Assembly: GCA_003141435.1 (NCBI GenBank)
Contig: PLLW01000082.1
Location: 1 to 42,143, forward strand
Direction of reading: 5' to 3'
DNA: 42,143 bases
Origin: Ignavibacteriales bacterium
GTDB lineage: Bacteria; Bacteroidota; Ignavibacteria; Ignavibacteriales; Ignavibacteriaceae
Below, piece by piece: positions 1-15,440 of the stretch (position 1 is the first letter of the stretch; every line of letters begins with the position of its first letter). The position numbers and the translations under genes were made by a program. The notes beneath the pieces are model-generated. The model made no database searches. It had not been told where the DNA came from and was given only the letters and a program-made list of their open reading frames with translations.

Positions 1-165
1 ATATTTGATACTGATTTAGAAGGTACTTTAAGACCACAAGGTGCAGGATGGGATATGGGGGCATTTGAATATATACAACCTATCCCACCTATTGGTTCTG
101 TTGGTTCTGTAATAATCCAATTAGGCAAAAAAGGACTTCAATCATTTAGGATAAACTCTCGGTAG
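1..165 (+). CDS. C-terminal end of a beta-helix type protein (partial)
   Basis: The first 54 codons are open and stop at TAG (163-165); the start lies left of the window. The visible sequence contains RPQGAGWDMGAFEY, the signature that closes many right-handed parallel beta-helix proteins (the 'choice-of-anchor Q' type ending). It is followed by a Pro/Gly-rich linker and a basic tail of about 30 residues. Beta-helix proteins in phages are often tailspikes or fibres that bind or cut surface polysaccharide, and the gene stands directly upstream of phage structural genes, so a virion surface protein is a reasonable inference. Catalytic residues cannot be judged from this fragment. The tail after the EY motif does not look like a T9SS sorting domain. 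Confidence 0.6.
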   Translation: MFDTDLEGTLRPQGAGWDMGAFEYIQPIPPIGSVGSVIIQLGKKGLQSFRINSR

Positions 166-198
166 GGATAACCTTTTCGCAAATAAATAAGGATAATT

Positions 199-1056
199 AT
201 GATTGAACAGAATATAAATATTTTAAGACTAAACAAGCAGACGCTACTTTTTGTTAGCGAGGGAAGCGAGGACGTAACCGCTCACAAATTTACTTTTGTG
301 GTAAAGCGTGACACCGAGCTAACATCACCGAGAGTAATTGAGAAGAAAAATTTAGTAGCGGGCGGCAGCGATAGTGAGCTCGCAGTTGTTTACGACAGCG
401 TGTCTAAGACCCTCACTATTAACGTGTATCTTACAAAGTCAGACACCGAAGGGCTCACAAGTCTGAATTATTACTACGATATTTTAGAGGAAATTCCAGA
501 CGATCTTAATTCCGGTACAACTTTATTTATGGGCTCTGCTACTTTGGAACCGACAGTACAGTCACCGTCGGACGGTGTTAGCTTGCCAGAAAATTCACTG
601 AGGTACGCAGCCGTGACCGCTTCGGACTTTAACGATAACGATATTATCGTAAAAAAAACTATTGGAGGTATTCCGGTATTTACAGGTCAGTCTCCTGCCG
701 AATTAAACGCCAGTCTCCCAGTTGCTAAAAGATACGTCAATACTATAGACATGGATAGTGGAGTACCCACCCCAGCAACCCCTATGGTAAATACGATTGG
801 GGCTATTGATTGGCAAAAAAGTACGGCAGGGATTTTAAGAGGAACATTAACTGGGGCATTTCCCAATACAAAAACATTTGTGAGCATAAATAATATTGTT
901 ATGGGGGATGGAGAGATTCCCTTTTATGTCTCCCATAATCCAGCGGGTAATGATTATGTGGAGATCGAATTTCAATCTTCCGCTAATCCGGGCGTACCTG
1001 CGGATGTTGACCTGCCATCTCGATTTGAAATATCTATAGAAGTTTTCCCCGCATGA
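199..1056 (+). CDS. phage baseplate/fibre-like structural protein
   Basis: A 285-residue protein without signal peptide or membrane segment. The first ~100 residues are a beta-rich domain with alternating hydrophobic strands, similar in style to the N-terminal Ig-like domain of BppU-type baseplate proteins; this is a resemblance, not a firm family assignment. The remaining half is another beta-rich region. An ATG preceded by AAGGAT (189-194) supports the start. Its stop overlaps the next start (ATGA). Base composition changes inside the gene: the first half is rich in CG-containing codons like the tail genes, the last third is more A/T-rich like the following gene. A head decoration or fibre protein is an equally possible role. 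Confidence 0.5.
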   Translation: MIEQNINILRLNKQTLLFVSEGSEDVTAHKFTFVVKRDTELTSPRVIEKKNLVAGGSDSELAVVYDSVSKTLTINVYLTKSDTEGLTSLNYYYDILEEIPDDLNSGTTLFMGSATLEPTVQSPSDGVSLPENSLRYAAVTASDFNDNDIIVKKTIGGIPVFTGQSPAELNASLPVAKRYVNTIDMDSGVPTPATPMVNTIGAIDWQKSTAGILRGTLTGAFPNTKTFVSINNIVMGDGEIPFYVSHNPAGNDYVEIEFQSSANPGVPADVDLPSRFEISIEVFPA

Positions 1057-1946
1057 TAACCAATATTTACATATATGGCAATGATGAACACGCTTTAGAT
1101 GTCTATGGTTCTTTTTGTCAAGGACTTGCTGATTGTGGTTCTGGTTGGACTGGAAGTGTAGTCTATGGAGCTTCTAATATAGCAACCGCTTTAGGATTAG
1201 GTTGTCAATTATATATTAAAAGCTATACGGGAATGTCGGGTATGATTGCAGAGGCATTAGCAAGTTATCCTGATATAGTTACTTTTATGCCAGCAGGCTC
1301 GAATACGCCAAACGATCATGTATATAATTCAAATGGAATATTACCAAATATAATTGTAACGGGTGCGGGGATAACATCAAATTTAACAGGATATGATATT
1401 GAATTTTATAGTCATGACTCCATAGATAATGATAGTCCCGATTTAAGTTCATTTTCAAATGGATATATAGCGGGAGTACTGACTTACATTACAAATTATT
1501 TGAATGTGAATATTTGGACAGCAAGATATTTATTAAGAGTGGCTTTAGGCAATAGTTGGACTCCGCAAAATGGATATGGGAAAGTAACCCCTCAAATTGC
1601 AGAAACAGCGATGGGATTATATAATCCATTAACTGATTATAATGCTTTAGACCCATTTATTGCTCGTCTCGGAACTATAGGAACAATTACCGGAGTAAAG
1701 ACAGATCAAAACGTCGTGCTAACTTTAAGCCCTGTTACCAATGCGACCAGCTACGAGATCAGGAAAAATGGAGTTTTACTCGCGGTTCAATCAGGGTTAA
1801 CATATACGGACGCACTTACGGCGAGTTCTGTTTACGATTACAGGGGGAAGTTTACAAATATATATGGAGAGGTAGAGTATTCGGAGTATTCGGATTCAAT
1901 CGAAATAAAATTTTGCACTTTTAATACCATAGCGATAAGGAGTTAA
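1053..1946 (+). CDS. degenerate subtilisin (S8)-fold protein with C-terminal Fn3-like domain
   Basis: This 297-residue protein shows the order of landmarks of an S8 peptidase core. Residues 18-41 (YGSFCQG...VVYGAS) match the HGTHVAG...GVAPGA block, with Tyr18 where the catalytic His should be. Residues 79-106 (MPAGSN...PNIIVTGAG) match the AAGN...vi.VGA block, with Ser83 in place of the oxyanion Asn. Residues 131-142 (LSSFSNGYIAGV) match GTSFATPYVAGV, so the catalytic Ser position is kept. Residues 174-178 (GYGKV) match the usual GYG.V. No Asp block is evident before residue 18. Residues ~213-286 look like a fibronectin III domain (TDQNVVLTLSPV...YEI). Most likely an inactive protease fold used as a phage structural or binding module. 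ATGA overlap with the upstream gene places it in the phage late operon. Confidence 0.5.
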   Translation: MITNIYIYGNDEHALDVYGSFCQGLADCGSGWTGSVVYGASNIATALGLGCQLYIKSYTGMSGMIAEALASYPDIVTFMPAGSNTPNDHVYNSNGILPNIIVTGAGITSNLTGYDIEFYSHDSIDNDSPDLSSFSNGYIAGVLTYITNYLNVNIWTARYLLRVALGNSWTPQNGYGKVTPQIAETAMGLYNPLTDYNALDPFIARLGTIGTITGVKTDQNVVLTLSPVTNATSYEIRKNGVLLAVQSGLTYTDALTASSVYDYRGKFTNIYGEVEYSEYSDSIEIKFCTFNTIAIRS

Positions 1947-2252
1947 ATGTTTAGCGCAGCCACAGTTAAAAAAGTTTTACAAATAAATGATACGTCAAAA
2001 GACGTTGTACTCGATACTTTAATTTTATCAGTCAGCGACTTCATAAGAATATACTGCAAAGATACGTTTGAGACTATCCCTGCGGGCTTGCTATTACCCT
2101 TCTCTCAAATGATTGGACATATACTTAATACTAAATTTATGAGCGGTACAAGCAGCGAGTCTTTGGGAGATCACAGCATAAGCACGAGCGCTGACTTTCC
2201 TCCGGCTATGCTTAAGATGCTATCACCGTATAGAAAAGTGAAGTGCTTTTAA
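1947..2252 (+). CDS. head-tail connector protein, gp6-like
   Basis: A 101-residue, mainly helical protein. The pattern V.KVL.I.D.SKDVVLD.LI..VSDFI..YC...FE near the N-terminus is typical of the HK97 gp6-type adaptor family, which forms a ring below the portal. A strong ribosome binding site (AAGGAG, 1937-1942) sits five bases before the ATG. The next gene starts inside its stop codon (TAATG). Position ahead of a head-closure-like gene and a gp10-like gene agrees with connector function. Identification rests on pattern and context rather than on an invariant motif. Confidence 0.55.
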   Translation: MFSAATVKKVLQINDTSKDVVLDTLILSVSDFIRIYCKDTFETIPAGLLLPFSQMIGHILNTKFMSGTSSESLGDHSISTSADFPPAMLKMLSPYRKVKCF

Positions 2253-2566
2253 TGGTACAAGATTTTTTTGACAATACCGTTTTATATGAGAAGAAAACTA
2301 AGACGAGTGACGGACTCGGAGGCTTTACGGCTGTATGGGGAGGCACAGGCAATCAGTTTTCAGTTAAATGCTATAAGAGGCAGCTAAACGCTAACGAGAT
2401 CAGAGTTGACGATAAACTTAAGGCTATCTGTACTGAAAGAATTTATTCAGAATTAGTCACAGTCGATAATACTTGGAGAGCAACCGTGAACGGAAAGATT
2501 TATGAAATAACCGGCGTCTTAAACCGTCCTGATTATACTCAGGCAGACGTAAGGATTCTCGAATAA
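2252..2566 (+). CDS. head closure / head-tail adaptor protein
   Basis: About 104 residues and rich in beta strands. The core has the layout of small phage head-closure proteins (gp16/HK97 gp7-like): an N-terminal 'F.D.TVLYEKK..TSDGLGGF...W' strand-loop, and a C-terminal 'GKIYEITGV.NRPDYTQADVRIL' strand pair that resembles the ending of this family. The ATG at 2252, overlapping the previous stop as TAATG, is preferred over the GTG at 2243 because translational coupling of this kind recurs throughout the operon. The next gene again starts with TAATG. Confidence 0.6.
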   Translation: MVQDFFDNTVLYEKKTKTSDGLGGFTAVWGGTGNQFSVKCYKRQLNANEIRVDDKLKAICTERIYSELVTVDNTWRATVNGKIYEITGVLNRPDYTQADVRILE

Positions 2567-2976
2567 TGAACGAAAATTTATACGACTCGTTATTTATTAA
2601 ATATGGAATACTCCGCAGTATTGATCCCTTGTTGTTAAAGGCTCAGGTCAAACAGGAAAGTGCTTTTAATCCTCTGGCAGTATCGAAGTGCGGAGCGAAA
2701 GGATTAGCTCAATTTATGCCCGCTACATGGGCTCAGGTCGGAAAGGGTGATATATTTAACCCTGACTCAAATATCAGAGCGCAGGCAGCCTATATGAGTG
2801 CTCTGATGAGAGAATTTAAGGGAGATACTGAGAAAGTTCTCGCTGCTTATAATTGGGGAATGGGAAACGTATTGAAATTAAAAGTTTTTGCTCTCTTGTA
2901 TTTACCGGAGGAAACACATCACTACGTTTTGAATATTGAAAAATATTATGATGAATATAAAAAGGGGTCCGTATGA
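2566..2976 (+). CDS. SLT-type lytic transglycosylase (phage endolysin or tail muramidase)
   Basis: A 136-residue single-domain soluble lytic transglycosylase. Family landmarks are clear: Glu31 in KQESAFNP is the catalytic acid, GLAQFMPATW (46-55) is the substrate-groove motif, and AAYNWG (93-98) is the third conserved block. Such enzymes cleave the MurNAc-GlcNAc bond of peptidoglycan and form 1,6-anhydro ends. There is no signal peptide or transmembrane segment, so export would need a holin, or the protein acts from the virion. Directly downstream are three small membrane proteins, which makes a lysis role likely. Its place between head-closure and gp10-like genes is unusual. Coupled by TAATG upstream and ATGA downstream. 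Confidence 0.85.
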   Translation: MNENLYDSLFIKYGILRSIDPLLLKAQVKQESAFNPLAVSKCGAKGLAQFMPATWAQVGKGDIFNPDSNIRAQAAYMSALMREFKGDTEKVLAAYNWGMGNVLKLKVFALLYLPEETHHYVLNIEKYYDEYKKGSV

Positions 2977-3062
2977 TAACAGGAATAATAATCTTTGTAG
3001 TAGGATTGGGAAGTTACATAGCGTTTTTGCTGTTTCCTCCAAAAGACAAAAAGACAAAATAA
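2973..3062 (+). CDS. 29-residue single-span membrane peptide
   Basis: A very short gene starting inside the stop of the transglycosylase gene (ATGA) and ending with TAA at 3060-3062. It encodes one hydrophobic segment (ITGIIIFVVGLGSYIAFLLF) followed by a basic tail (KDKKTK). The topology suggests a small inner-membrane protein with its C-terminus in the cytoplasm. A role as accessory holin or holin regulator is inferred only from position between a lytic enzyme and a larger membrane protein. The GGGG stretch at 2964-2967 could act as its ribosome binding site. Confidence 0.5.
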   Translation: MITGIIIFVVGLGSYIAFLLFPPKDKKTK

Positions 3063-3068
3063 TCTTAA

Positions 3069-3641
3069 ATGGATTTAACTAATAAAAATAAAAGTTTTTT
3101 TGAACTCAATGAGCAAGATAGCAATGTCGGACACGAGTTACCCGATTACGTAAAAGCCGACTCACTTGCTCATTCTGAGTTAAATAGTAAGTATGAAATT
3201 GTAAAAAATAATTCTATCAATTCAATAATAAAAAAAGAGGTTCAAATGACAAATTTATTAAAGCCTATTGGCTATTTAATAGCTTTGGTTGCAGCTTTCG
3301 TATTCGCATTATTCTTTCCTCACACTACTTTTGAGGGTTCCGCTATCGGTATCGTAACAACCCTTACAGGATTGTTAGGTCTTACCGATTGGAGAACTCA
3401 GTTCGATAATTTCGAGGGTTACTTCAAATCTAAAACACTTGTCGGAGCTCTGTTAGCTTTAATCCCTGCCTTGGGCTTTTGCGTAATAAGTCTATTCGGT
3501 GTTGTGCTCCCTTCATGGGTGCAGACTCTTTTGACATGGATACTAACTGCGGGAGGCGGTACTTCCCTAGTTGGAATATTTGCGGCTAACGCTAAAGCGA
3601 CTCCTGTATCTACGACTCCACCCACAGGTTTGAGTAAGTAA
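3069..3641 (+). CDS. holin-like membrane protein with possible dual start
   Basis: A 190-residue protein. Residues 60-190 contain a hydrophobic hairpin (NLLKPIGYLIALVAAFVFALFF), then a segment near 75-115 and another long pair (~120-172), ending in a Thr/Pro-rich tail. The first 59 residues are polar and charged. Two starts are possible: ATG 3069 has no visible ribosome binding site, whereas the in-frame ATG 3246 has AAAGAGG (3233-3239) at good distance and would give a 131-residue, membrane-only form. Holins often make two products from nested starts, but that is an analogy here. It lies next to a lytic transglycosylase and is coupled by TAATG to a membrane/coiled-coil protein. No specific holin family is recognised. 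Confidence 0.5.
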   Translation: MDLTNKNKSFFELNEQDSNVGHELPDYVKADSLAHSELNSKYEIVKNNSINSIIKKEVQMTNLLKPIGYLIALVAAFVFALFFPHTTFEGSAIGIVTTLTGLLGLTDWRTQFDNFEGYFKSKTLVGALLALIPALGFCVISLFGVVLPSWVQTLLTWILTAGGGTSLVGIFAANAKATPVSTTPPTGLSK

Positions 3642-3955
3642 TGGTAGCAATCAATCTGACCGCTATTCAGTTACTAATCGGCATAATTACCGCTATTGGT
3701 TGGGTTGGTATTCAGGTTGGGCTTCAATGGGCTTTTAAGAAAGATGTTAATATCAGACTGAAAGCCCATGAGGACAAAATTAAAGAACTCGACGCAGCCA
3801 GAGAGAGTAATAATCTCTTATTGGTTAAGATCAGTACAATACTTGAAATTGTACAGGAGCACACCTTAACCGTACAGGCAGACACAAAAGAGAACGGTAA
3901 GAAACTCGATGCTATGAAAGATTTTTGCAGAGTTAATGAGATAATACCGAAATGA
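3641..3955 (+). CDS. membrane-anchored coiled-coil protein (phage lysis block)
   Basis: A 104-residue protein with one N-terminal transmembrane segment (residues ~7-31) followed by a charged helical region (LKAHEDKIKELDAARE...LLVKISTILEIV) that looks like a coiled coil. This resembles haemolysin XhlA-type or i-spanin-like phage proteins in layout, but there is no diagnostic motif. It starts in the stop codon of the holin-like gene (TAATG) and overlaps the next start (ATGA). Role in lysis is inferred from topology and neighbours. Confidence 0.5.
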   Translation: MVAINLTAIQLLIGIITAIGWVGIQVGLQWAFKKDVNIRLKAHEDKIKELDAARESNNLLLVKISTILEIVQEHTLTVQADTKENGKKLDAMKDFCRVNEIIPK

Positions 3956-4383
3956 GTGAAGTAAAAGTAACAAGCACTTGGAGAATACCTGAGTTCATGG
4001 TTAAGGTAAAAGAAAATTTAAGAGATAAACTTATCCTTGTCGGTGTATTCGTACAAGGCGAGGCTGTTAGCCGTTGTGTCGTGGGTTCATATCCACAGGG
4101 AAGCGGCAGAGTGGGAGGACGGCTAAGAGGCTCGATCACTTACGCAACTGAAAATGAACGTTCGGGGGTGAGACCCGAAGGTCAGCCAGCAGCTTCATCA
4201 GGAGACGGACTTCAAAATAACGCTCCTGAATTATCGGTACGTATCGGCTCTAACGTAGAGTACGCTCCTTACGTGGAGCTTGGTATCGGGGGTAACGCTC
4301 CAAATGCAATGTTTTTAAGAGGAGCGGTTGAGGAAAATCTTGACAGAATAAAACAGCTATTAAACTTGGAGGCTTCTTCTTAA
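3952..4383 (+). CDS. HK97 gp10-like neck / minor tail protein
   Basis: A 143-residue protein with the recognisable C-terminal block of the HK97 gp10-like family: GRLRGSITY, then VRIGSNVEYAPYVELG and a terminal FLRGAVEENLD helix. This family builds the neck where head connector and tail meet. Between the two blocks there is a Ser/Gly-rich insert (residues ~68-90). Start ATG overlaps the previous stop (ATGA), and the following gene begins in its TAA (TAATG). Function fits its position ahead of the tail terminator and major tail genes. Confidence 0.75.
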   Translation: MSEVKVTSTWRIPEFMVKVKENLRDKLILVGVFVQGEAVSRCVVGSYPQGSGRVGGRLRGSITYATENERSGVRPEGQPAASSGDGLQNNAPELSVRIGSNVEYAPYVELGIGGNAPNAMFLRGAVEENLDRIKQLLNLEASS

Positions 4384-4853
4384 TGAATAACATGTATAAT
4401 AAAACTAAAGCTCAAATTATGGCTGTTTATAGTGCTAACACGGACGCAGGCTTTTTGAAAAACTTGCTCGGAGATAATTTTTTCTATGCAGAGAAACCAG
4501 ACGATAATTTGGAGAAAACTTACGGAGTATTCCAATTAACCTTTCCCGATAATAAAAAGGATTCAGCAGATAAATTTGAAACGGTTTTAATGCAGATAAA
4601 TTTATATGACGAGTCGGAAAGTTCGGAGGCGGTCGGAAATTTAGCGGCAGCAGCAGAAAAAACTTTTAACGCAATTCAGTCTTTAATGAGTTTTACTCAG
4701 ATAAGCGGGACAGTCGGGCATACCGTAACTACAACTATTGCATACGTAACGAAATCCAAAAGAGATTTTACTCGTTTCGTTCCACGTGTGGATAAGGTTT
4801 GGACTTCGGTACTTCAATACCGGATTAACTTACAAATTTTTGATGAACAGTAA
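4383..4853 (+). CDS. tail terminator / tail completion protein
   Basis: A 156-residue protein between the gp10-like neck protein and the major tail protein, the normal place of the tail terminator (lambda gpU / DUF3168-like). The sequence has a helical N-terminus followed by strands such as YGVFQLTFPDNK and VLMQINLYDE and ends with LQYRINLQIFDE, consistent with this small alpha/beta fold. No catalytic motif is expected. Assignment is mainly by order and fold-like pattern. Translationally coupled to the upstream gene by TAATG; a short gap of 30 bases with its own ribosome binding site follows. Confidence 0.6.
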   Translation: MNNMYNKTKAQIMAVYSANTDAGFLKNLLGDNFFYAEKPDDNLEKTYGVFQLTFPDNKKDSADKFETVLMQINLYDESESSEAVGNLAAAAEKTFNAIQSLMSFTQISGTVGHTVTTTIAYVTKSKRDFTRFVPRVDKVWTSVLQYRINLQIFDEQ

Positions 4854-4883
4854 TTTTTTTTAATCACTTAAGTAGGAGACATA

Positions 4884-5270
4884 ATGACAGGCGACGTAAT
4901 CACAGGGATTTTAGGGACTATATCTTTCGGCAGCACGCCGACAGCAGTTAAAATAACAAAGTGGAGCTTGAAAAAATCAGCTTCACCGATAAACGTAAGC
5001 GATAACGGCTCGGCTGGCTTCGAGGAATTTAAGCCCGCTAAAAATATCGGCTGGACTGGTTCATTCACAGGGTTTATGAGAGTTGGCGTAACACCTCCTG
5101 CTATAAACTCAATAGTAGCGTTCTCAGGTGTAGCCGACACAGGCTCGACTTACTCCGGTAACGTTATTATAACTGAGGAAGGCTTTGACGTTGACACCGT
5201 TGGCGGCAACGCCGTACAGGTCAGCAGAAACTTCACCGGAACAGGAACTTTAACGGAAGTACATACCTAA
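4884..5270 (+). CDS. major tail (tube) protein
   Basis: A 128-residue, nearly all-beta protein that begins with TGDVITGILGTISFGSTPTAVKITKWSL, a pattern typical of small siphovirus tail tube proteins. It is preceded by a clear ribosome binding site (TAGGAG, 4872-4877). It is followed at once by the tail assembly chaperone and tape measure genes, the conserved order around the major tail gene. The protein would polymerise into the tube on the tape measure. At 128 residues it is small but within the range of tube proteins lacking an extra Ig domain. Confidence 0.7.
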   Translation: MTGDVITGILGTISFGSTPTAVKITKWSLKKSASPINVSDNGSAGFEEFKPAKNIGWTGSFTGFMRVGVTPPAINSIVAFSGVADTGSTYSGNVIITEEGFDVDTVGGNAVQVSRNFTGTGTLTEVHT

Positions 5271-5273
5271 TAT

Positions 5274-5636
5274 ATGATTAGAGCCACGAAATTTATCGAA
5301 GGCTTTGGCGTCCTCTCTGAGCGATCAGCAGAGGACGTTTTATCACTTGCGGAATTTGCTAAAAAGAACGCAGATAAGCCAGCAAGTAATTTAATTGTAT
5401 GCGCTACTACTATCAGTCAGTCGCTCAGGTATAATTATGACTGTATCAAGTGGCATGGATTTATTAAAAAATGGGAAATGAGAAAACTGCTTAAACCAAA
5501 TTATTTGCTTAAAATATTTTCTCAGTCTCAAATTTTTGATCTGTACGCAGAGGCTTTATTACTTGAGGGCGTGGACGTAAAAAAAAAAGTAGCGGAGATA
5601 GCAAACGAATTAGTCGAGTCACCTCAAACACCTTAA
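5274..5636 (+). CDS. tail assembly chaperone, short (gpG-like) form
   Basis: A 120-residue helical protein located between the major tail and tape measure genes, the place of lambda gpG. The ATG lies four bases after the upstream stop. Residues 102-106 (VKKKV) are encoded by a run of ten A (5579-5588). There the ribosome can slip to the -1 frame and make the longer product described separately. Tail assembly chaperones bind the tape measure and guide tube protein addition; they are usually not part of the mature virion. The assignment rests on gene order, size and the frameshift signature rather than a conserved motif. Confidence 0.7.
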   Translation: MIRATKFIEGFGVLSERSAEDVLSLAEFAKKNADKPASNLIVCATTISQSLRYNYDCIKWHGFIKKWEMRKLLKPNYLLKIFSQSQIFDLYAEALLLEGVDVKKKVAEIANELVESPQTP

Positions 5637-5836
5637 TAGCTCACTACTGTAATATATCTTACGAAAAAACAGAGAAGCGTTTAATAACTGAATACAGAGA
5701 ATTACTTGACAGGGCTATTGCTTTAATGAGTTACGTGCATAGCGGAAAAATTGATCTTGAAACATACACGGATAGAAAACAATCGGCAGAAATGGACTAT
5801 CAGAAATTCATAAACGAAGGAGGCACTCTTGAGTGA
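5274..5836 (+). CDS. tail assembly chaperone, -1 frameshift (gpGT-like) form
   Basis: Reading shifts by -1 at the A-run 5579-5588. The -1 frame is closed by TGA at 5564-5566, just before the run, and is then open without interruption to TGA at 5834-5836. The fusion has 187 residues: ~105 of the short form plus ~82 of extension (SSGDSKRISRV...SAEMDYQKFINEGGTLE). The extension is charged and helical and looks coding. No convincing independent start or ribosome binding site serves it. The extension ends inside the tape measure start region, exactly as in lambda G-T/H. An SD-like AGGG (5566-5569), about 12 bases before the probable slip heptamer, could stimulate slipping. Confidence 0.75.
5579..5588 (+). 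promoter_or_regulatory. -1 ribosomal frameshift slippery site (A10)
   Basis: A run of ten A read in frame as GTA AAA AAA AAA GTA. Several A-AAA-AAA heptamers are in correct register for a tandem -1 slip. The -1 frame opens only after 5566, so the overlap of the two frames upstream of the site is minimal, as expected for a functional site. A purine-rich AGGG at 5566-5569 lies at a distance that stimulates -1 slipping in the dnaX case. No strong downstream stem-loop is obvious. Confidence 0.7.
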
Positions 5837-8228
5837 TAGTGGAAATAGTTTAGGCGAGACCTATGTCGAGATCAGCGCTAAGGTCGATAAAATGGAACAG
5901 AGCCTTAACGATCTTAAGAGTACGACAGCCACAAAGGCAGAGGAAATAGGGAGCGTATTCTCCGATAAAATCGGTGCGGGTATAACTAAAGTCACCGGCA
6001 TGTTAGCGGGATTTTTCGCAGCTGCAAAGATTTTTGATTTTCTCAAGGAAGGTGTTGACCTATACGGAAAGTCTGAGACCGCTCTCACTAAATTAAATTT
6101 CGCTGTTGGCGCAGCTTCAAAGGAGCTTGATAAATACGCAGACTCGTTAGATAAAACTACAAGATTTAAGAAAAATGATTTGCTTGAGGGCATGTCATTT
6201 ATGGGCATGTACACAAGAAACGCAGATACAATTAAACAGCTTACTCAGGCTGCAATGGACTTAGCAACCGCAAGGGGAATGAGCTTTGAAGCCGCAGGGA
6301 CAATGATAACACGGTCTTTCGGTTCTCAGGCAAACGCTTTAAGACGTATGGGTATTGACGTACAGGGAGTGAGCGGCTCTGAGGAACGTCTTAAGATGAT
6401 AACCGAAGGCATATCTAATCACTTCGGGGGAGTGGCTCAGGCAAGTGCTAACACGTACGCCGGACGTATGGAAATTCTCAGCCATAAGGTCGAGGAGCTT
6501 CAAAAGGGAATGGGAGCGGAGCTTGTACCGGCTATCGAAGCAGTAACAGGCAGCTTTAGTGGAGCAATCGACAAGGGAAATAACACTACTGCCATGATGC
6601 AAGGGCTCGGAATTGCAGCGAAAATTATAGCCGGAGCTTTCTTACTTATTAAAATTGCCATTTTAGAGACTGGTGACATCATGGGAACTTTCGGAGCTTC
6701 TTTTGTCGCTTTTGCTATGGGAGATTTTAAGCATGCAGTTCAAATATGGGGGAGTGGTTTAACTGCAATGAAAAATGACGCAGTGGACTCATACGACTCG
6801 ATAGCAAGTTTATTCAAGGCTAATCAAAAACTTGAAATGAATGTTAAAGTGAAACCTCTTAACATGGGAGACCCCACAAAAGCAGATCAGAAAGCCGCAG
6901 CCGACTTAAAGAAAGAAGCGGAGGCTCAGGCTAAAGATCAACTTGACGTACAATATCAGCTCATGGAAGCATACGGAAAACTTTACAGAGACGATATAAA
7001 AAACAAATATGATAAAGACGAGAAAGAAGCAAGTGACGAGTATAATATCGGTATGCTTAAACTTGAGAATGAAGAAAAGGTTGGCGGGCTCAGTGTGGCT
7101 CAGCAGCAAATTATTAACGATAAGAAAAAACTTTTAGGAGTCGCTTTAGAAACCGCTCTCAAGGAAGCTAATCAGGGCAGAGTCGACGATGAGAAAAAAG
7201 CGGAGGAAGAATTACTCGCTAAAAAAATAGAATTTGAAAAGTCGTACGACGCTCAAATAACATCACTTGAGAAAGAAAGAGTTGACACTCAGATCAGAGA
7301 CCATACTCTCTCACTTGAGGAATATAAAACATATTTAGCGAAACTTCTCGCAGCAAAATTGAAATCTTTGGAAGAAGAAAACGAAAAAATTAAAGCAAAG
7401 AATAAAGAGCTTGGTACTAATAAACCCTTAATCGACATCACTCAGCAGAAACAGTTTGGAGAGAAAGAGGACAAATCAAATGTAAGCGATTATCAAAAAG
7501 CGCAACAGGATAAGTTAGTCGTAGCATGGAAAAAGAATAATTCCTTTATGTATGACTCGACTACGAATCTTACAAAATCACTTGTGAGTAATTGGAAAAG
7601 TACAATAACTCAAATGATGAATGGGACAAAGAATTTAGGCGAAGGTCTTAAAAGCATTTTCAAAGATGCTGGCGCAAGTATTATCGACTCCATAGTGACA
7701 GCACTTGGAAATATTGTAGAGAAATACATTGAAAGTATTTTTATTCAAGAAGCAGTGTCAGAGGGAGCACAGACGACGGCTGTTATTGCGGGCGTGACAA
7801 CGGGAGGGCTTTTGGCGGCTGCATATGCAGAGCCAGCTATGTTAGCAAGTATAATGAGTTTTGGAGGTGCGGATACTGCGGGAATGGCTGGATTTTCTAT
7901 GGCAATGACTTTAGCACGCGGTTTTAGTATAGCTCCGAAATTAGCGCAGGGAGGCGATTTTACAGTACCGCCAGGTTTTCCTAATGACTCTTACCCGATC
8001 TTAGTAGAAAGCGGGGAACACGTACAAGTTACACCCGCAGGGCAGAGCTCAAATAATAACATGGATATTGTGAACGCCATACTTGCACTTAATCGAAATT
8101 TAATAAATAAAAACATGAGTCCGATTGTAAACGTGCATGCTAACATAGACGGTTTGACGTTCACAAGGGAGACTGTTAATAAAAGTCAGCTACGATTAAA
8201 TAACGCAGGGGTTAGGAATGTCGTATAG
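5829..8228 (+). CDS. tail tape measure protein
   Basis: A 799-residue protein, the longest of the tail block after the fibre. It has an N-terminal heptad-like region (VEISAKVDKMEQSLNDLKS) and hydrophobic stretches near residues 50-70 and 255-300 and again at 650-700. A long charged helical region (~residues 370-540) is rich in Lys/Glu/Ala, and a Gly-rich C-terminus follows. This composition and its position after the chaperone identify a tape measure, which sets tail length and helps DNA entry. The start is TTG with GAAGGAGG (5816-5823) five bases upstream; it overlaps the end of the frameshift product. No peptidase or lysozyme domain is visible. At the usual ~0.15 nm per residue the tail would be roughly 120 nm (estimate). 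Confidence 0.85.
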   Translation: MSDSGNSLGETYVEISAKVDKMEQSLNDLKSTTATKAEEIGSVFSDKIGAGITKVTGMLAGFFAAAKIFDFLKEGVDLYGKSETALTKLNFAVGAASKELDKYADSLDKTTRFKKNDLLEGMSFMGMYTRNADTIKQLTQAAMDLATARGMSFEAAGTMITRSFGSQANALRRMGIDVQGVSGSEERLKMITEGISNHFGGVAQASANTYAGRMEILSHKVEELQKGMGAELVPAIEAVTGSFSGAIDKGNNTTAMMQGLGIAAKIIAGAFLLIKIAILETGDIMGTFGASFVAFAMGDFKHAVQIWGSGLTAMKNDAVDSYDSIASLFKANQKLEMNVKVKPLNMGDPTKADQKAAADLKKEAEAQAKDQLDVQYQLMEAYGKLYRDDIKNKYDKDEKEASDEYNIGMLKLENEEKVGGLSVAQQQIINDKKKLLGVALETALKEANQGRVDDEKKAEEELLAKKIEFEKSYDAQITSLEKERVDTQIRDHTLSLEEYKTYLAKLLAAKLKSLEEENEKIKAKNKELGTNKPLIDITQQKQFGEKEDKSNVSDYQKAQQDKLVVAWKKNNSFMYDSTTNLTKSLVSNWKSTITQMMNGTKNLGEGLKSIFKDAGASIIDSIVTALGNIVEKYIESIFIQEAVSEGAQTTAVIAGVTTGGLLAAAYAEPAMLASIMSFGGADTAGMAGFSMAMTLARGFSIAPKLAQGGDFTVPPGFPNDSYPILVESGEHVQVTPAGQSSNNNMDIVNAILALNRNLINKNMSPIVNVHANIDGLTFTRETVNKSQLRLNNAGVRNVV

Positions 8229-9438
8229 CTTAAAATTATATGTCGGCTCTGCATGGCAGGACATAAGCGATTATGTCGATATAACGAATAGCGTATTTCC
8301 AATTCAGGAGCATACGGACAGGGGAGAGCCTGTTATTTCGACTTTTGATTTAAGCATATTTGATAAAATCCCGTACGCTTTAACAGTCGGCGCAGACGTT
8401 AGGTTATTTCTGGACTCGGTAGTTCTAAAAAAATACGTTATAACAAAAGCGAATAGGGATATAGAGACTTCGTTCTGGACAGTGTCTCTTAGTTATGCTT
8501 ACCAAAAGCTAACAGTGAAAAAAATATGTTCGAGCGTGCTGCAAGCTCAGTTAGACGCCTCAAATATGGCATTTAATTACTCCACAGATAACACAGGACA
8601 CGAGAATGTAACATATTTGTATTTACTGCAATGTATGTTTCAGGCGTGCGGTTTTCCTCTTAGTATTATGCCTGACGTATGGAAAGCGGTTATTTTTAAT
8701 ATTGACCTAACGAGCGGACTTCCAATGACAGGCTCGACACAGATTGAACTTGCTCAGGTGTGCCTTGATATGCAAATGGTCTGGGCGTTGAATCAGGACA
8801 CCATATTTCATGGAGCGGGAAGCGTAAATGATAAAGCGGTGAATGTCTTAAGACCGTACCTATGGGACTTTGTAAGAATGACGTTGCCAATTTTCAAATT
8901 AACAATAATAGACGACCCCGATAATCCAGACGGCTATAGACTTATAAGAAATGATTGGCTTCCCCTGATAACGGTCGACTGCAATTATTTATATAAAAGT
9001 CAGATTTTCGGCTATCAGACTGCGGGACAGCCAGCTCAGGGGGACGGTGTGAGTGTTGGTTTCAAGGCTGCTAACAGATCAGATTATTATACGTACACTT
9101 TCGCCGCTAAAATCGACCCGAGTATTCAGAGGGATTATGTCGAGTCGGCAGCATCAAATGATTTACTCTCTCTCGATTGGTATAATAATTTAAGATTTTT
9201 ATTTCGCACCTCTCCGTCCCCTTCGGACTACATTCACGTGTATATGATAGGTGATGATTGTATTTGGTTCGATATGGTTGATTATGCGACACACGGTCGC
9301 CTTTGTGTCGTTCGGATATTATCAGACTATACTCTCCAGACTATTACAGGCGCGATAAGTATAGGACACTACTTTCAAGTGCTCTCGTTACAGTATGACC
9401 TTAATGGCGAATTTATGTTAATAACGCAAAATGTTTAA
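8218..9438 (+). CDS. tail tip / baseplate hub-like protein
   Basis: A 406-residue, beta-rich protein directly downstream of the tape measure, overlapping it by 11 bases, with GGGGTTAGGA before the ATG. The N-terminus (SLKLYVGSAWQDISDYV) resembles tail-tip proteins that open with a domain binding the tube end, and the middle (YLLQCMFQACGFPLS; LDMQMVWALNQDTIFHGAG) recalls hub proteins of the gpD/gp27 kind. This is judged by position and style only; no catalytic motif is present. Probable distal tail or hub component. Followed nine bases later by a gene with a strong ribosome binding site. Confidence 0.5.
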   Translation: MSYSLKLYVGSAWQDISDYVDITNSVFPIQEHTDRGEPVISTFDLSIFDKIPYALTVGADVRLFLDSVVLKKYVITKANRDIETSFWTVSLSYAYQKLTVKKICSSVLQAQLDASNMAFNYSTDNTGHENVTYLYLLQCMFQACGFPLSIMPDVWKAVIFNIDLTSGLPMTGSTQIELAQVCLDMQMVWALNQDTIFHGAGSVNDKAVNVLRPYLWDFVRMTLPIFKLTIIDDPDNPDGYRLIRNDWLPLITVDCNYLYKSQIFGYQTAGQPAQGDGVSVGFKAANRSDYYTYTFAAKIDPSIQRDYVESAASNDLLSLDWYNNLRFLFRTSPSPSDYIHVYMIGDDCIWFDMVDYATHGRLCVVRILSDYTLQTITGAISIGHYFQVLSLQYDLNGEFMLITQNV

Positions 9439-9447
9439 GGAGGAATA

Positions 9448-9954
9448 ATGTTTTTTGGAATGGGCAGCCCTGCGCTAATCAACGGCGGTAATACGGTAGT
9501 TTTAGATCATGCAGTTCTAACGCCGACGTTTTCAGTACCGGACGAAGTGCTATCGACCTCACTATTTACGAGAAAGAGAAATTGGAAAACTTACGGAGAT
9601 TATGCAGAATTTGAGATTGTAGTTAATCTCCACAAATATTGCGTGGAGATTGACGGTATAACTCCGAGAGATAAATTTATCCAAATATACGCCCTCAATC
9701 ATGCGGACGTCTATTTTAAGGCTTGCGCAGACGGAGCAATTTTGAAAGACGGAAGTGGAGCGAGTGTGTTTTTTCACGTTACAGACATTACGCCTTATTA
9801 CTTAAACGATATTATTGATTATGACATGGTAATTATCAAATTGCAAAGTGCTACGTATGTCGATCTTGCAGCGTGTCTCGCTGACCCCGCTACATGGACG
9901 CTTGAGGGTGGCGGGCATGTTGTTGACGAGAATGGCTGGCATGTTATATTATAA
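9448..9954 (+). CDS. tail-associated protein of unknown function
   Basis: A 168-residue protein with mixed alpha/beta pattern, no signal peptide and no membrane segment. A perfect AAGGAGG (9437-9443) lies four bases before ATG. It lies between the hub-like protein and the fibre, so a distal tail or fibre-attachment role is likely. The centre (FTRKRNWKTYGDYAEFEIVVNLHKY) resembles strands of tube-like or Dit-like domains, but this is not firm. No further motif recognised. Confidence 0.45.
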   Translation: MFFGMGSPALINGGNTVVLDHAVLTPTFSVPDEVLSTSLFTRKRNWKTYGDYAEFEIVVNLHKYCVEIDGITPRDKFIQIYALNHADVYFKACADGAILKDGSGASVFFHVTDITPYYLNDIIDYDMVIIKLQSATYVDLAACLADPATWTLEGGGHVVDENGWHVIL

Positions 9955-9982
9955 AATTTTTAATAAATAATTAGGAGATAAA

Positions 9983-12460
9983 GTGAAACTCAGACACATA
10001 ATTTTTACGTTACTTTTATCGGTGTTAACATTTCCAACGTTAGCGCAGGACAAAAGAATAGATCAGTTTCCACCGGCAACGGTGATCAATAGCGCAGACC
10101 TAATTCCTATTTTTCAGAATGGCGTAACTAAGAAAATTACAGATTCATTATTCAATGCGGGAAATGATACTACTAAGTACCAACCTAAAGGAAGTTATCT
10201 AACTGCATCTTCTACTTTGAATGCTTCCAAATTGACAGGGACGATCAATGATTGTACAGTTGGTAAATTAACTTTCGGTGTTGAGGCGTATGATTGGAAT
10301 CAAGCTGATGCTAATTCGTCTGTCTTTGATGTTAGTTCGTATGGAAATTATACTTACTTCATTATGAGTGGGACAAATACACAGGAAGGAGTCACAATCG
10401 CTACCATTAACGGCGGAGTGAATGGAAGACAGATCATACTTCAATATAATGATACAAACCCTTTTGGATTGGAAATAGACTCAACAGCATCGATACACCT
10501 TGCAACCCATTCGTACGTTATGGCTAAGGGCTATAATATCACATTGATATATTATAGTGGTATATGGAATGAAGTTTCAAGGAATGTCACACCTTCGAGT
10601 GGGGGTAGTATAACCGGTACCCCTTGGGCATCAATGGGGTATCTTACCTCTTCCAGTACTTTAGATGCTTCCAAGCTGACAGGAACGATCAATAATTGTA
10701 CAATTGGTAAATTAACTTTCGGTGTTGAGGCGTATGATTGGAATCAAGCTGATGCTAATTCGTCTGTCTTTGATGTTAGTTCGTATGGAAATTATACTTA
10801 CTTCATTATGAGTGGGACAAATACACAGGAAGGAGTCACAATCGCTACCATTAACGGCGGAGTGAATGGAAGACAGATCATACTTCAATATAATGATACA
10901 AACCCTTTTGGATTGGAAATAGACTCAACAGCATCGATACACCTTTCAACCCATTCGTACGTAATGGCTAAAGGCTATAATATCACATTGATATATTATA
11001 GTGGTATATGGAATGAAGTTTCAAGGAATGTCACACCTTCGAGTGGGGGTAGTATAACCGGTACCCCTTGGACATCGATGGGTTATCTTACATCTTCCAG
11101 CACATTAGATGCCTCCAAGTTAAATTCAGCTCCTTGGACATCAATGGGCTATCCGAGAACAGCGACGGACAGTTATCCGGCTTCTCCGAACATTGGAGAT
11201 TTCAGTTATGATAATAATAGCACCTCTCTGAGTTACTATAACGGTGGTTCATGGACACCAATATCTAGCGGTTCAGGAGCGTTTCCAGGATTCGGTACTT
11301 CCAGTTCTACTGCTTGTGTTGGTAACGATTCAAGATTATCAAATTCAAGGACAGCCTCGGATGTTTCTGCGTGGGCTAAAGCATCTACTAAACCTACTTA
11401 CACTTATTCGGAAGTAGGAGCTGCACCAGCTGGAAGCTATTTAACTTCTTCTTCTACTTTGGACGTTTCGAAATTAAGCAGTACTCCGTGGACATCAGCA
11501 GGGTATGTAACCGGAACTCCGTGGACTTCAATGGGCTATCCGAGAACAGCAACAGACAGTTATCCGGCTTTTCCGAACATTGGAGATTTCAGTTATGATA
11601 ATAATAGCACCTCTCTGAGTTATTATAACGATGGTTCATGGATACCAATAGCTGATTCTAATTATGCTTATAAAAAAGCAATGAGTGATGCCAAATATCA
11701 GCCACTTGGTAGGCAAAGTTCCAATATTACTACTTTTAGTTGCAATCTAATTGGCACTGATTCGGTATTTAATATTAGTGGATATGCAAATTACAGTTAC
11801 TTCCTTGTGAAGCCTGGAGCGGATGCTTCGCACACACGATTTATTGCGCATATTATTGGCGGTACGACGAATGGGAGACAGATCACGCTTCAGTATCACG
11901 ATTCAACAGACCAACTTTTTTTGGTAATAAAATCGGGAGCAAACTTAAAACTTGCAACTACTGATAACTATATAATGCACGACCAATTTGTCTTAACATT
12001 AATATATTATAACGGCATCTGGTCTGAGGTTTCAAGAGCAACTGACCCGCACCTATCTGGCTTTGCGCAAACAAGTCAAGAATCTGGTGATACCTGGCCA
12101 TCTTCTCCTAATGAGGGAGATATTGTCGTTAATGAAGATAATAGCAATGCTTTTATGTTAATATCCGGTGACTGGACGCAAATCAGTTCACAATTTCCAG
12201 GATTCGGTACTTCCAGTTTTACTGCTTGTGTAGGTAACGATTCAAGATTATCAGATTCAAGATATGCTAAGGGTACAGGAACGGCAGATGTTACAACTGC
12301 TTTAAGGGGAAATAATACATGGGTAAAAACTCCGAGAGTAATGAGTGTTAATGGTGCGCACTCAAGCAATCCTAATCAGGGCGATATGGATATAGATACT
12401 GAGAATAATAATCTCTACATGTATATAAATAGCGCGTGGAAAACCATTACACATAATTAA
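9983..12460 (+). CDS. repeat-built tail fibre / adhesin with Sec signal peptide
   Basis: An 825-residue protein starting at GTG after AGGAG (9972-9976). Residues 1-21 form a clear signal peptide (basic start, LLLSVL core, TLA|Q). The following RIDQFPPATVINSADLIPIFQNGVTKK segment is the 'interaction with tape/shaft' style opening found in many phage fibres. A ~148-residue module occurs twice almost identically (about residues 73-220 and 221-368) and a third diverged copy lies near 578-688. Two shorter modules (MGYPRTATDSYPA.PNIGDF...; FPGFGTSS.TACVGNDSRL) also occur twice each. Content is rich in Ser, Thr, Asn, Gly and Tyr, as in fibres. The signal peptide is unexpected for a virion protein. 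It may instead be displayed or secreted by the lysogen. Confidence 0.6.
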   Translation: MKLRHIIFTLLLSVLTFPTLAQDKRIDQFPPATVINSADLIPIFQNGVTKKITDSLFNAGNDTTKYQPKGSYLTASSTLNASKLTGTINDCTVGKLTFGVEAYDWNQADANSSVFDVSSYGNYTYFIMSGTNTQEGVTIATINGGVNGRQIILQYNDTNPFGLEIDSTASIHLATHSYVMAKGYNITLIYYSGIWNEVSRNVTPSSGGSITGTPWASMGYLTSSSTLDASKLTGTINNCTIGKLTFGVEAYDWNQADANSSVFDVSSYGNYTYFIMSGTNTQEGVTIATINGGVNGRQIILQYNDTNPFGLEIDSTASIHLSTHSYVMAKGYNITLIYYSGIWNEVSRNVTPSSGGSITGTPWTSMGYLTSSSTLDASKLNSAPWTSMGYPRTATDSYPASPNIGDFSYDNNSTSLSYYNGGSWTPISSGSGAFPGFGTSSSTACVGNDSRLSNSRTASDVSAWAKASTKPTYTYSEVGAAPAGSYLTSSSTLDVSKLSSTPWTSAGYVTGTPWTSMGYPRTATDSYPAFPNIGDFSYDNNSTSLSYYNDGSWIPIADSNYAYKKAMSDAKYQPLGRQSSNITTFSCNLIGTDSVFNISGYANYSYFLVKPGADASHTRFIAHIIGGTTNGRQITLQYHDSTDQLFLVIKSGANLKLATTDNYIMHDQFVLTLIYYNGIWSEVSRATDPHLSGFAQTSQESGDTWPSSPNEGDIVVNEDNSNAFMLISGDWTQISSQFPGFGTSSFTACVGNDSRLSDSRYAKGTGTADVTTALRGNNTWVKTPRVMSVNGAHSSNPNQGDMDIDTENNNLYMYINSAWKTITHN
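10204..11091 (+). repeat. two tandem copies of a ~444-bp repeat inside the fibre gene
   Basis: Copies lie at about 10204-10647 and 10648-11091, in frame (148 codons) with an offset of exactly 444 bases. From about 10262 to 10620 they are nearly identical, with only scattered single-base differences such as GATTGTACAGTT versus AATTGTACAATT. A third copy at about 11717-12045 is recognisable mainly at protein level. High identity at DNA level indicates recent duplication or homogenisation by recombination. Confidence 0.9.
11141..11647 (+). repeat. dispersed ~120-bp repeat pair inside the fibre gene
   Basis: Two close copies at about 11141-11260 and 11528-11647 begin TCAATGGGCTATCCGAGAACAGC and encode the MGYPRTATDSYPA.PNIGDFSYDNN module. 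A further short pair (FPGFGTSS.TACVGNDSRL) lies at about 11281-11340 and 12195-12250. Together with the 444-bp tandem repeat the gene is a mosaic of shuffled modules. Confidence 0.8.
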
Positions 12461-12483
12461 TAATTTAATAGAAGGAAACAAAC

Positions 12484-12726
12484 ATGAAATCATGGAGAAT
12501 AATCGTCCTTGTTATATTACTCATATTGAGTTGTGTGGCATATAAATTGTCGGCACAGGTTCGGGAGGATTCAGTAAAACAAGTTGAATTGAAAAATGAT
12601 TTTGAATTTTTCCAGAAACAAAAAGCTGCTATTGATTCCCAGAGTATTGGGTATTCATATATAATGCATTATCTATATCAAAAATCTCTGATGATTGAAG
12701 AGAAGAAACGATTTAAGGAAAAATGA
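12484..12726 (+). CDS. small exported or membrane-anchored phage protein
   Basis: An 80-residue protein with an N-terminal hydrophobic segment (WRIIVLVILLILSCVAYKLSAQ) that can be a signal peptide ending near SAQ or a membrane anchor; the Cys at residue 17 gives a weak lipobox-like context (LILSC). The rest is charged and helical (VKQVELKNDFEFFQKQKAAI...EEKKRFKEK). It follows the fibre gene with AGAAGGAA (12471-12478) as ribosome binding site and is the last gene before the attachment site. Possible fibre assembly helper, spanin-like or lysogen-expressed protein; none can be shown. Confidence 0.5.
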   Translation: MKSWRIIVLVILLILSCVAYKLSAQVREDSVKQVELKNDFEFFQKQKAAIDSQSIGYSYIMHYLYQKSLMIEEKKRFKEK

Positions 12727-12761
12727 TAACGTTGTCACCCATTTGTCACCCAAACGTTATC
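12725..12761 (+). repeat. 9-bp inverted repeat enclosing two 10-bp direct repeats
   Basis: GATAACGTT (12725-12733) and AACGTTATC (12753-12761) are perfect inverted copies, separated by 19 bases. Inside and overlapping lie two copies of TTGTCACCCA (12732-12741 and 12743-12752), 11 bases apart, i.e. about one helical turn. There is no T-tract, so it is not a terminator. Position 70-100 bases from the tRNA-Phe remnant suggests integrase/excisionase arm-type binding sites. This is inference. Confidence 0.5.
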
Positions 12762-12829
12762 GGGAGAGGGCAATCAACTTACATCCAGGGTATAAAAAGC
12801 GTATTTTAGCATGTGTTTTAGGGATAGTT

Positions 12830-12876
12830 AAGGACTGAAAATCCTTGTGTCGGGGGTTCAATTCCCTCTCTGCCCA
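12830..12876 (+). other. prophage attachment site: displaced 3' half of tRNA-Phe(GAA)
   Basis: The sequence folds as the 3' half of a tRNA: anticodon stem AAGGA/TCCTT around loop CTGAAAA (anticodon GAA), variable loop GTGTC, T-stem GGGGG/CCCTC around TTCAATT, 3' acceptor strand TCTGCCC and discriminator A. The matching 5' acceptor (GGGCAGA) and D-arm are missing upstream, so this is not a working tRNA. Phage integration into the 3' end of a tRNA gene leaves such a fragment at the far end of the prophage. The host terminator of the original gene follows directly. An intact tRNA-Phe carrying the same 3' half is expected left of the window. Confidence 0.75.
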
Positions 12877-12884
12877 CGTTCGTT

Positions 12885-12910
12885 AAGGCGCTTACCGAAG
12901 CGCCTTTTTA
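12885..12910 (+). terminator. rho-independent terminator of the original tRNA-Phe gene
   Basis: Stem GGCGCTT (12887-12893) and AAGCGCC (12898-12904) with loop ACCG, extended by two A-T pairs and followed by a short T-run. It lies eight bases after the tRNA-Phe fragment and was probably its native terminator before prophage integration. Confidence 0.8.
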
Positions 12911-12976
12911 ATTTCAAATAGCCCACTCTTTTCTTCCTTCTTCAAAAGCGGCTATTTAAGTTAATAGACAGAAAAA

Positions 12977-13008
12977 TTTGATTTTGCATTAACAGTCCCA
13001 TATATTTC
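12977..13008 (+). promoter_or_regulatory. possible Bacteroidota-type promoter for tRNA-Asp
   Basis: TTTG (12977-12980), 20 bases, then TATATTTC (13001-13008) fits the -33/-7 consensus TTTG-N19-21-TAnnTTTG with one mismatch. Transcription would start some 30 bases before the tRNA. The consensus comes from Bacteroides; its use here is assumed. Confidence 0.35.
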
Positions 13009-13043
13009 GACCTATATTTTTTAATAAGTTCTTAAATGGAATT

Positions 13044-13117
13044 GGGGTCGTAGTTCAGTTGGTTAGAACGCCTGCCTGTCACGCAGGAGGTCGCGAGTTC
13101 GAGTCTCGTCGGCCCCG
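13044..13117 (+). tRNA. tRNA-Asp (GTC)
   Basis: Complete 74-base cloverleaf. Acceptor GGGGTCG pairs with CGGCCCC (with one T-G pair), the D-arm contains GTTCAGTTGGTTAGAAC, and anticodon stem CCTGC/GCAGG encloses loop CTGTCAC with anticodon GTC. The T-arm is CGAGTTCGAGTCTCG and the discriminator base is G. CCA is not encoded. It is intact and lies just outside the prophage. Confidence 0.95.
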
Positions 13118-13122
13118 CTCAG

Positions 13123-13157
13123 TAAGCCCTTGTAAGTGAATAACTTACAGGGGTTTA
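13123..13157 (+). terminator. long hairpin after tRNA-Asp
   Basis: TAAGCCCTTGTAAGT (13123-13137) pairs with ACTTACAGGGGTTTA (13143-13157) over 15 positions with wobble pairs, closing a 5-base loop. It begins six bases after the tRNA. It lacks a long T-run, so termination is likely but not certain. The rest of the gene-free stretch up to 13342 is A/T-rich and shows nothing further that can be named. Confidence 0.5.
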
Positions 13158-13342
13158 CCATGTTAAAGGTACTACAACCGGCACAATTCTTCATTTCAAT
13201 CTCTTCCTGAATAAATTAATTAATCCCATATATACATTATATTATTAAAATAAAATATTTATTGAAACATTAGTTTTTAATAGCTATATTATTTACATAA
13301 TTTTACATAAAATTTTATTTCATTTAAAATAACGAGGTTCAA

Positions 13343-13999
13343 ATGAAAGTTATAATTACTTCTCTATTCCTTTTTTCCATACAGCTTTTTGCTGGTATCG
13401 GGGTAGGTTATTCTGATGTCGGATCTTTACCTGTTGAACTAACTTCGTTTACTGCAAAGCAAAGCGTAAGCGGTATAGAGCTTCAATGGGCAACAGCAAC
13501 TGAAGTCAGTAACTTCGGATTTGACGTTGAGAGAGCCTCTCTTGTTACACAAAACAACCAAACAAATTGGGAAAAGATTGGATTTATTAATGGACATGGT
13601 AATAGCAATTCACCAAATAAGTATAGCTTCATTGATAATAAACCACTGAATGGGAAATCCCAATATCGCTTAAAACAGATTGACAAGGATGGAGCTTTCA
13701 AATACTCAAAAACAGTAGAAGTTGTGTCCGTAATTTTGAAATATGATTTAGCCCAAAACTACCCCAATCCTTTCAATCCAACTACAGTTATTACATATTC
13801 CATACCTGCATCATCAAATGTACTGATAAATGTATATAACGTAATAGGTGAACGTATAAAAACCCTTGTAAATCAATATCAGGAAGCTGGTAGTTATAAA
13901 ATTAATTTTAATGCCGTGGGTTTAAGCAACGGGATTTATTTTTACAAAATACAATCTGGCAATTTTGTTGAAATAAAGAAAATGTTGTTATTAAAATAA
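13343..13999 (+). CDS. short secreted protein with T9SS type A sorting domain
   Basis: A 218-residue protein with a signal peptide (residues 1-17, ending QLFA). A middle module opens LPVELTSFTAKQ...LQWATATEVSNFGFDVER, and a C-terminal sorting domain of ~80 residues contains YPNPFNPTTVITYSIP, NVYNVIGERIKTLVN and GIYFYKIQSG. The C-terminal domain sends proteins through the type IX secretion system and is typical of Ignavibacteria and other Bacteroidota. The usual large passenger is missing: the protein consists almost only of the two accessory modules. A purine-rich stretch (AACGAGG, 13331-13337) precedes the ATG. The following gene begins 13 bases downstream, so they may form an operon. Confidence 0.85.
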   Translation: MKVIITSLFLFSIQLFAGIGVGYSDVGSLPVELTSFTAKQSVSGIELQWATATEVSNFGFDVERASLVTQNNQTNWEKIGFINGHGNSNSPNKYSFIDNKPLNGKSQYRLKQIDKDGAFKYSKTVEVVSVILKYDLAQNYPNPFNPTTVITYSIPASSNVLINVYNVIGERIKTLVNQYQEAGSYKINFNAVGLSNGIYFYKIQSGNFVEIKKMLLLK

Positions 14000-14012
14000 A
14001 AGGAATAAAAAA

Positions 14013-15002: not shown

Positions 15003-15020
15003 CTTATTATTAATATCAAG

Positions 15021-15050
15021 ATATTGGCCAGGTGATGGCCTGGCTAATAT
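15021..15050 (+). terminator. terminator hairpin after the FISUMP gene
   Basis: ATATTGGCCAGG (15021-15032) pairs with CCTGGCTAATAT (15039-15050), 12 pairs with one G-T, around loop TGATGG. It lies 19 bases after the stop codon; the U-tract is weak (ATTTAAT). Confidence 0.65.
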
Positions 15051-15440
15051 TTAATCACTGGCAAAAGAATAAAGATAATAAATCATCCTCTCTATAATTC
15101 AAAGTTTAACTTGAATAGCGTATTATAATATTTTACTGTCTGAATTATAGAATAATATTCCCAAAATGAGAATAACACTTCCAAATCATCTTCATTTCTT
15201 TAATTTTATGCCGTTAAGTAAATTGGCACTTTAATTGGTAGCTATTGTGTAGTTGTTCTAAATAAATTAAAAAAACTGTGCAAATAGATCCTTTTAAAAA
15301 TTTGTATTTAATCAAACAAAATGTTTTATATTTATCAGGCAAATAATATAGCATTGATGGACATCACACCTAAAACTAAAAATCAATGGATAATAGCGCA
15401 AATGTTACATAATTTTCATTTATTAGAGTAATAGAAAATC
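15051..15440 (+). other. gene-free A/T-rich leader before the polysaccharide locus
   Basis: No coding frame, RNA or repeat could be supported here. It precedes the first gene of the polysaccharide locus and should carry its promoter. One weak candidate is TTTG at 15301-15304 with TATATTTA at 15327-15334, but the 22-base spacing is longer than the Bacteroidota norm. No JUMPstart-like element is seen. Confidence 0.4.

Follow-up and report, generated by a model that had tools for sequence, protein, structure and literature searches.

A tRNA-Phe(GAA) 3' fragment very probably marks the right attachment site of a temperate tailed phage in an Ignavibacteriales genome

Elements integrated at tRNA genes are recognized by the Islander criteria of an intact tDNA, an end fragment, an integrase gene inside the interval and a length of 2-200 kb (PMC4383910). 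One class of tRNA sites is centred on the anticodon and fits the start of the duplicated block described here (PMC4383910; PMC8371274). For the arrangement in which integrase and tRNA genes are convergent (OC), the two integrases examined showed no autoregulation (PMC2951348). The stretch of DNA analysed here (the window, 42,143 nt) is contig C64 of a 3.08-Mb genome in 123 contigs (G000), and with its partner contigs it presents a regenerated tDNA, a displaced 3' fragment, an internal integrase, a size in the above range and an empty site in the relative G001. The host tRNA-Phe(GAA) gene very probably harbours a temperate tailed phage of about 40.4 kb, with positions 12830-12878 as its right attachment site (attR; Table 1). 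At the sequence level, a duplicated 49-nt core, an intact tRNA with an integrase, a switch between native and foreign terminators and a bridging contig are apparent; from the assemblies we infer integration, and the element would presumably be able to excise. It is a textbook tRNA-integrated prophage of the ordinary kind, with a chain of evidence that is unusually complete for a fragmented genome.

Over 49 nt, the proposed attR core matches the 3' part of tRNA-Phe(GAA) letter for letter, and the 5' half is absent. This block (AAGGACTGAAAATCCTTGTGTCGGGGGTTCAATTCCCTCTCTGCCCACG, with termini AAGGACTGAAAATCC...CTGCCCACG) begins with the first anticodon-stem base, ends just beyond the tRNA 3' end and comprises the anticodon stem-loop (anticodon GAA), the variable loop, the T arm and the 3' acceptor strand. 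The earlier note had described a 47-base tRNA-Phe(GAA) 3' half lacking its 5' half; the fragment stands, and its length is corrected to that of the shared 49-nt block. No tRNA was called at these positions by ARAGORN or Rfam, and folding of 74 nt containing the fragment gave a z of 0.27 relative to shuffles, compared with -3.07 for the intact gene. In 100 shuffled versions of the window, a 45-nt core pattern was never matched by chance, even with up to three mismatches allowed. The second copy of the block, with 100% identity, is found on contig C20 inside an intact tRNA-Phe, and no third copy is present in the own genome. The third own-genome hit, on contig C97, is a tRNA-Met.

In agreement with the boundary proposed earlier, the genes to the left of the core are those of a phage (tail tape measure, tail, head-tail adaptor and SLT lysozyme) and those to the right belong to the host (tRNA-Asp, a T9SS sorting domain protein and a sugar transferase), with a step in G+C content from 39.9% on the left to 31.3% on the right. 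The tail gene at 9983-12460 contains internal near-identical repeats (162 nt, 96%), and an IMG/VR contig breaks there. On the host side, 15441-42030 form a long biosynthesis cluster of polysaccharide or capsule type with genes for sugar transferases, a Wzz-like kinase, glycosyltransferases and a flippase, mostly judged by reading the translations.

Table 1. Coordinates of features in the window and on associated contigs and loci, named according to the favoured reading
Feature	Location	Strand	Remarks
Prophage right part, late genes	1..12829	+	1-10374 identical to IMG/VR UViG_3300036885_000082
Head-tail adaptor	1947-2252	+	
SLT lysozyme	2566-2976	+	
Neck	3952-4383	+	
Tape measure	5829-8228	+	
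Tail	8218-9438	+	
Tail	9983-12460	+	
Last ORF on phage side	12484..12726	+	80 aa
Perfect inverted repeat, 9 bp	12725..12761	.	GATAACGTT...AACGTTATC; encloses the two left arm sites exactly
Probable arm-type integrase site 1	12734..12741	+	GTCACCCA; 88 bp left of core; putative function
Probable arm-type integrase site 2	12745..12752	+	GTCACCCA; 77 bp left of core; putative function
Probable arm sites right of core	C20:4252-4245, C20:4239-4232		GTCACCCA; 74 and 87 bp from core
Proposed attR core: the host's own tRNA-Phe(GAA) 3' part, displaced	12830..12878	+	Identical to C20:4327-4375(-)
Native host tRNA-Phe terminator, stranded at attR	12885..12909	+	Stem AAGGCGCTT / ACCG loop / AAGCGCCTT + T-run
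Host tRNA-Asp(GTC)	13044..13118	+	First host gene right of attR, outside the phage
Hexapeptide-repeat gene pieces	L034 1-264; L200 13638-14144		
ACCGA-loop terminator loci	Window 12885-12909; L037, L039, L042, L047, L048, L050, L051, L055, L099, L119, L122		
Prophage-sized elements of G012 and G050 in tRNA-Asp	L067, L071, L221, L222		Tandem TATAACACTTTT sites

A restored tRNA-Phe and the integrase had been predicted at the left end, the intact gene repeating the segment at its 3' end with a tyrosine integrase nearby, and both were found on contig C20. The intact tRNA-Phe (C20:4328-4401) is the best-scoring tRNA in the genome (75.3 bits) and the sole tRNA-Phe found in it; its 3' half is identical to the fragment, and the two copies are separated by a phage-sized distance of about 40.4 kb along the element. 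The gene for a 373-aa tyrosine integrase (C20:3117-4238) reads towards the tRNA, and its stop codon is 89 bp beyond the tRNA-Phe 3' end. The protein matches Pfam Phage_integrase (2.4e-26) and the PHROG integrase (1.4e-38) and contains the catalytic R...HxxR...H...Y residues (R230, H319, R322, H345 and Y355), with R230, R322, H345 and Y355 invariant in integrase alignment A1. Its catalytic domain superimposes on the lambda Int core 1ae9 with a Z of 14.0 and an rmsd of 2.8 (VIA-align). The N-terminal region has no Pfam match, and residues 2-51 are predicted to form a beta-beta-beta-alpha arrangement in a middling AlphaFold model (pLDDT 73, pTM 0.50). No relatives of this integrase were found in IMG/VR. 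The host side of the C20 tRNA contains a 439-aa gene, glmS and a gene for a large T9SS-like protein.

The terminator that the earlier note had placed after the fragment is borne out as a hairpin with a 9-bp stem, an ACCG loop and a T-run (AAGGCGCTT ACCG AAGCGCCTTTTTAATTTCAAA; -13.4 kcal/mol, z -3.1). Downstream of the intact tRNA-Phe, many related genomes of this order have a terminator with an ACCGA loop, a T-run and usually a ATTTTAAA tail; the intact gene of C20 has an unrelated hairpin there, AAAGAGTCTCTGGAAACGGAGGCTCTTTTT, and lacks the window-type terminator. Because the native-type terminator stands behind the window copy and a foreign one stands on C20, the window is assigned as attR and C20 as attL. 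The 3' half and terminator of the window are thus the host's own, displaced, and those of C20 are phage-borne. When a tRNA gene has been split, a conserved terminator can in this way distinguish its original half from the one brought by the phage. The empty site is seen in G001, whose contig C76 is phage-free and carries glmS, the 439-aa gene and tRNA-Phe together with the native terminator. The host side of C20 is syntenic with this region (80% identity over 3334 nt), and the alignment ends at the tRNA 3' end. Across many Ignavibacteriales, the stems of the tRNA-Phe terminator vary with both arms still pairing while the ACCGA loop is kept, and the loop may serve a separate function. A search of the own genome for the terminator pattern returned four other matches, by pattern alone.

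To the right of the native terminator, the host DNA is not syntenic with G001, the one same-genus genome, and homology to the tRNA-Asp region of that genome begins at window 12962. The tRNA-Asp with about 80 bp upstream (window 12962-13118; L097 8944-9113; L116) lies after pfkA in G001; in the own genome it adjoins the tRNA-Phe terminator, and both of its flanks differ from those in G001. A joined empty-site query found tRNA-Phe and tRNA-Asp adjacent in none of 58 relatives, so the right-flank synteny test reaches only as far as the terminator. The rearrangement of tRNA-Asp relative to G001 leaves the attR argument untouched. An apparent internal deletion in the own-genome pfkA was rejected, as it corresponds to an NN gap of the assembly.

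The two ends are bridged by IMG/VR contig UViG_3300036885_000082 (G059; 33,643 bp), which shares 100% identity with the left part of the window and overlaps C20:1-93 exactly at its far end. Such identity suggests separate assemblies of a single phage population. Joining the window, the IMG/VR contig and C20 gives an element of about 40,380 bp, a length that is approximate because the joint between C20 and the IMG/VR contig falls within an 18-nt tandem array. The array belongs to a phage gene for a hexapeptide-repeat protein of the left-handed beta-helix type, and both assemblies break there. The fragment has the same orientation as the tRNA, with the 3' fragment downstream, and the order of the element is set by the bridging contig. 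In a draft metagenome-style assembly, a 49-nt repeat may be mis-resolved with short k-mers, and both ends of the IMG/VR contig fall inside the phage; the attL and attR joins could accordingly be assembly choices, with the phage of the population mostly circular and the chromosome empty. This reading is unlikely, however, as two contigs cross the core with unique sequence on either side and the circular attP pattern has no match in IMG/VR. Neither a circular attP nor an empty attB of the same population was found, and searches of IMG/VR with exact attP and single-junction patterns gave 0 matches.

A tRNA-targeted genomic island or satellite, that is, an incomplete phage, would leave the same signature of tRNA and fragment, and a 9.9-kb element with DnaB-like helicase and integrase genes occupies tRNA-Phe in G054. 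Against this very improbable alternative, the bridging contig encodes large and small terminase, portal and major and minor head proteins, as well as an SSB (PHROG matches), and the window contributes tape measure, tail and lysozyme genes. The hallmark genes of tailed phages (large terminase, portal, major head protein and tail tape measure; PHROG) are therefore all present. Pfam Phage_capsid has no match in the own genome, which fits a major head gene located in the assembly gap. The G054 element (L099 ~5300-15340) is independent, has its own integrase, located at the fragment end, and has duplicated the 3' part of the tRNA together with the terminator. Least probable of all is that the fragment represents a decayed or phage-encoded tRNA within a phage genome and marks no boundary: tRNA genes are common in phages and the fragment adjoins phage DNA, but the host's native tRNA-Phe terminator directly follows it, its letter-for-letter identity to the host gene is limited to exactly the 3' part, host genes and lower G+C lie to its right, and the existence of a matching end with an integrase (attL) and the terminator switch contradict it.

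For integration of a temperate phage at tRNA-Phe, the favoured reading, the phage attP would carry a copy of the 3' part of the tRNA, which the phage tyrosine integrase would recombine with the tRNA gene. The anticodon loop is the most likely place of the exchange, given that the anticodon stem is where the identity block starts. The left end on C20 would keep a working tRNA-Phe composed of the host 5' half plus a 3' half and a replacement terminator that were both supplied by the phage, and the original 3' half with its native terminator would be pushed to the right end, which is the window. Counting both strands, the element contains four copies of the motif GTCACCCA, two beside the core on each side and none elsewhere. 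The left pair has a spacing of 11 and is about 92 nt from the anticodon; on the right, the copy at C20:4239-4232 overlaps the integrase stop codon. These tandem pairs are probable arm sites of the integrase, to which its N-terminal arm domain would probably bind to assemble the intasome, and the inverted repeat that brackets the left pair is a possible accessory-factor site.

Integrase relatives with 32-33% identity adjoin tRNA-Asp (G012 and G050), tRNA-Lys (G048) and tRNA-Val (G039). In all four, a tandem TATAACACTTTT pair with 12-nt spacing follows the tRNA, at a distance of 67-73 nt in three of them and of 12 nt in G039. In G012 and G050, the displaced tRNA-Asp fragment is preceded, at a distance of about 90 nt, by a second pair with 11-nt spacing; the distance and spacing of this pair are nearly equal to those on the left of the window core. 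A clade of Ignavibacteriales tyrosine integrases might thus have kept one attP layout (a left pair with 11-nt spacing and a right pair with 12-13-nt spacing, mostly ~70-75 nt past the tRNA end) while the tRNA targets (Phe, Asp, Lys and Val) and the arm motif changed, such that arm recognition and target choice would evolve separately; we put this forward tentatively, at slightly less than an even chance. The arm-site layout is testable in related integrases and is a point for specialist follow-up.

The literature searched contained no dedicated prophage paper on Ignavibacteriales. For a temperate phage of this uncultured lineage, the locus identifies the host exactly and supplies both attachment sites along with most of the phage genome. 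Relative to the 3'-fragment class of Islander, it has in common the intact tDNA, the downstream 3' fragment in the same orientation, the internal tyrosine integrase, the 2-200 kb size and the identity block from the anticodon arm. Nothing essential differs; the present phage additionally supplies a terminator, leaving the native one stranded. The Phage_integrase catalytic domain and the direct-repeat arm sites flanking the core on either side, here recognized from sequence only, resemble those of lambda Int and KplE1 IntS (PMC2951348). In contrast to lambda-type systems, the arm motif is GTCACCCA in a 2+2 tandem layout, and the integrase and tRNA genes converge (OC), unlike KplE1 argW-intS. 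Because the OC integrases examined lack autoregulation (PMC2951348), none is expected here. Finally, the elements of G012 (tRNA-Asp, ~44 kb), G050 (tRNA-Asp, ~38.5 kb), G048 (tRNA-Lys) and G039 (tRNA-Val) share a related integrase beside the tRNA and a tandem pair of sites, but differ in their target tRNA and in an arm motif that is TATAACACTTTT rather than GTCACCCA.
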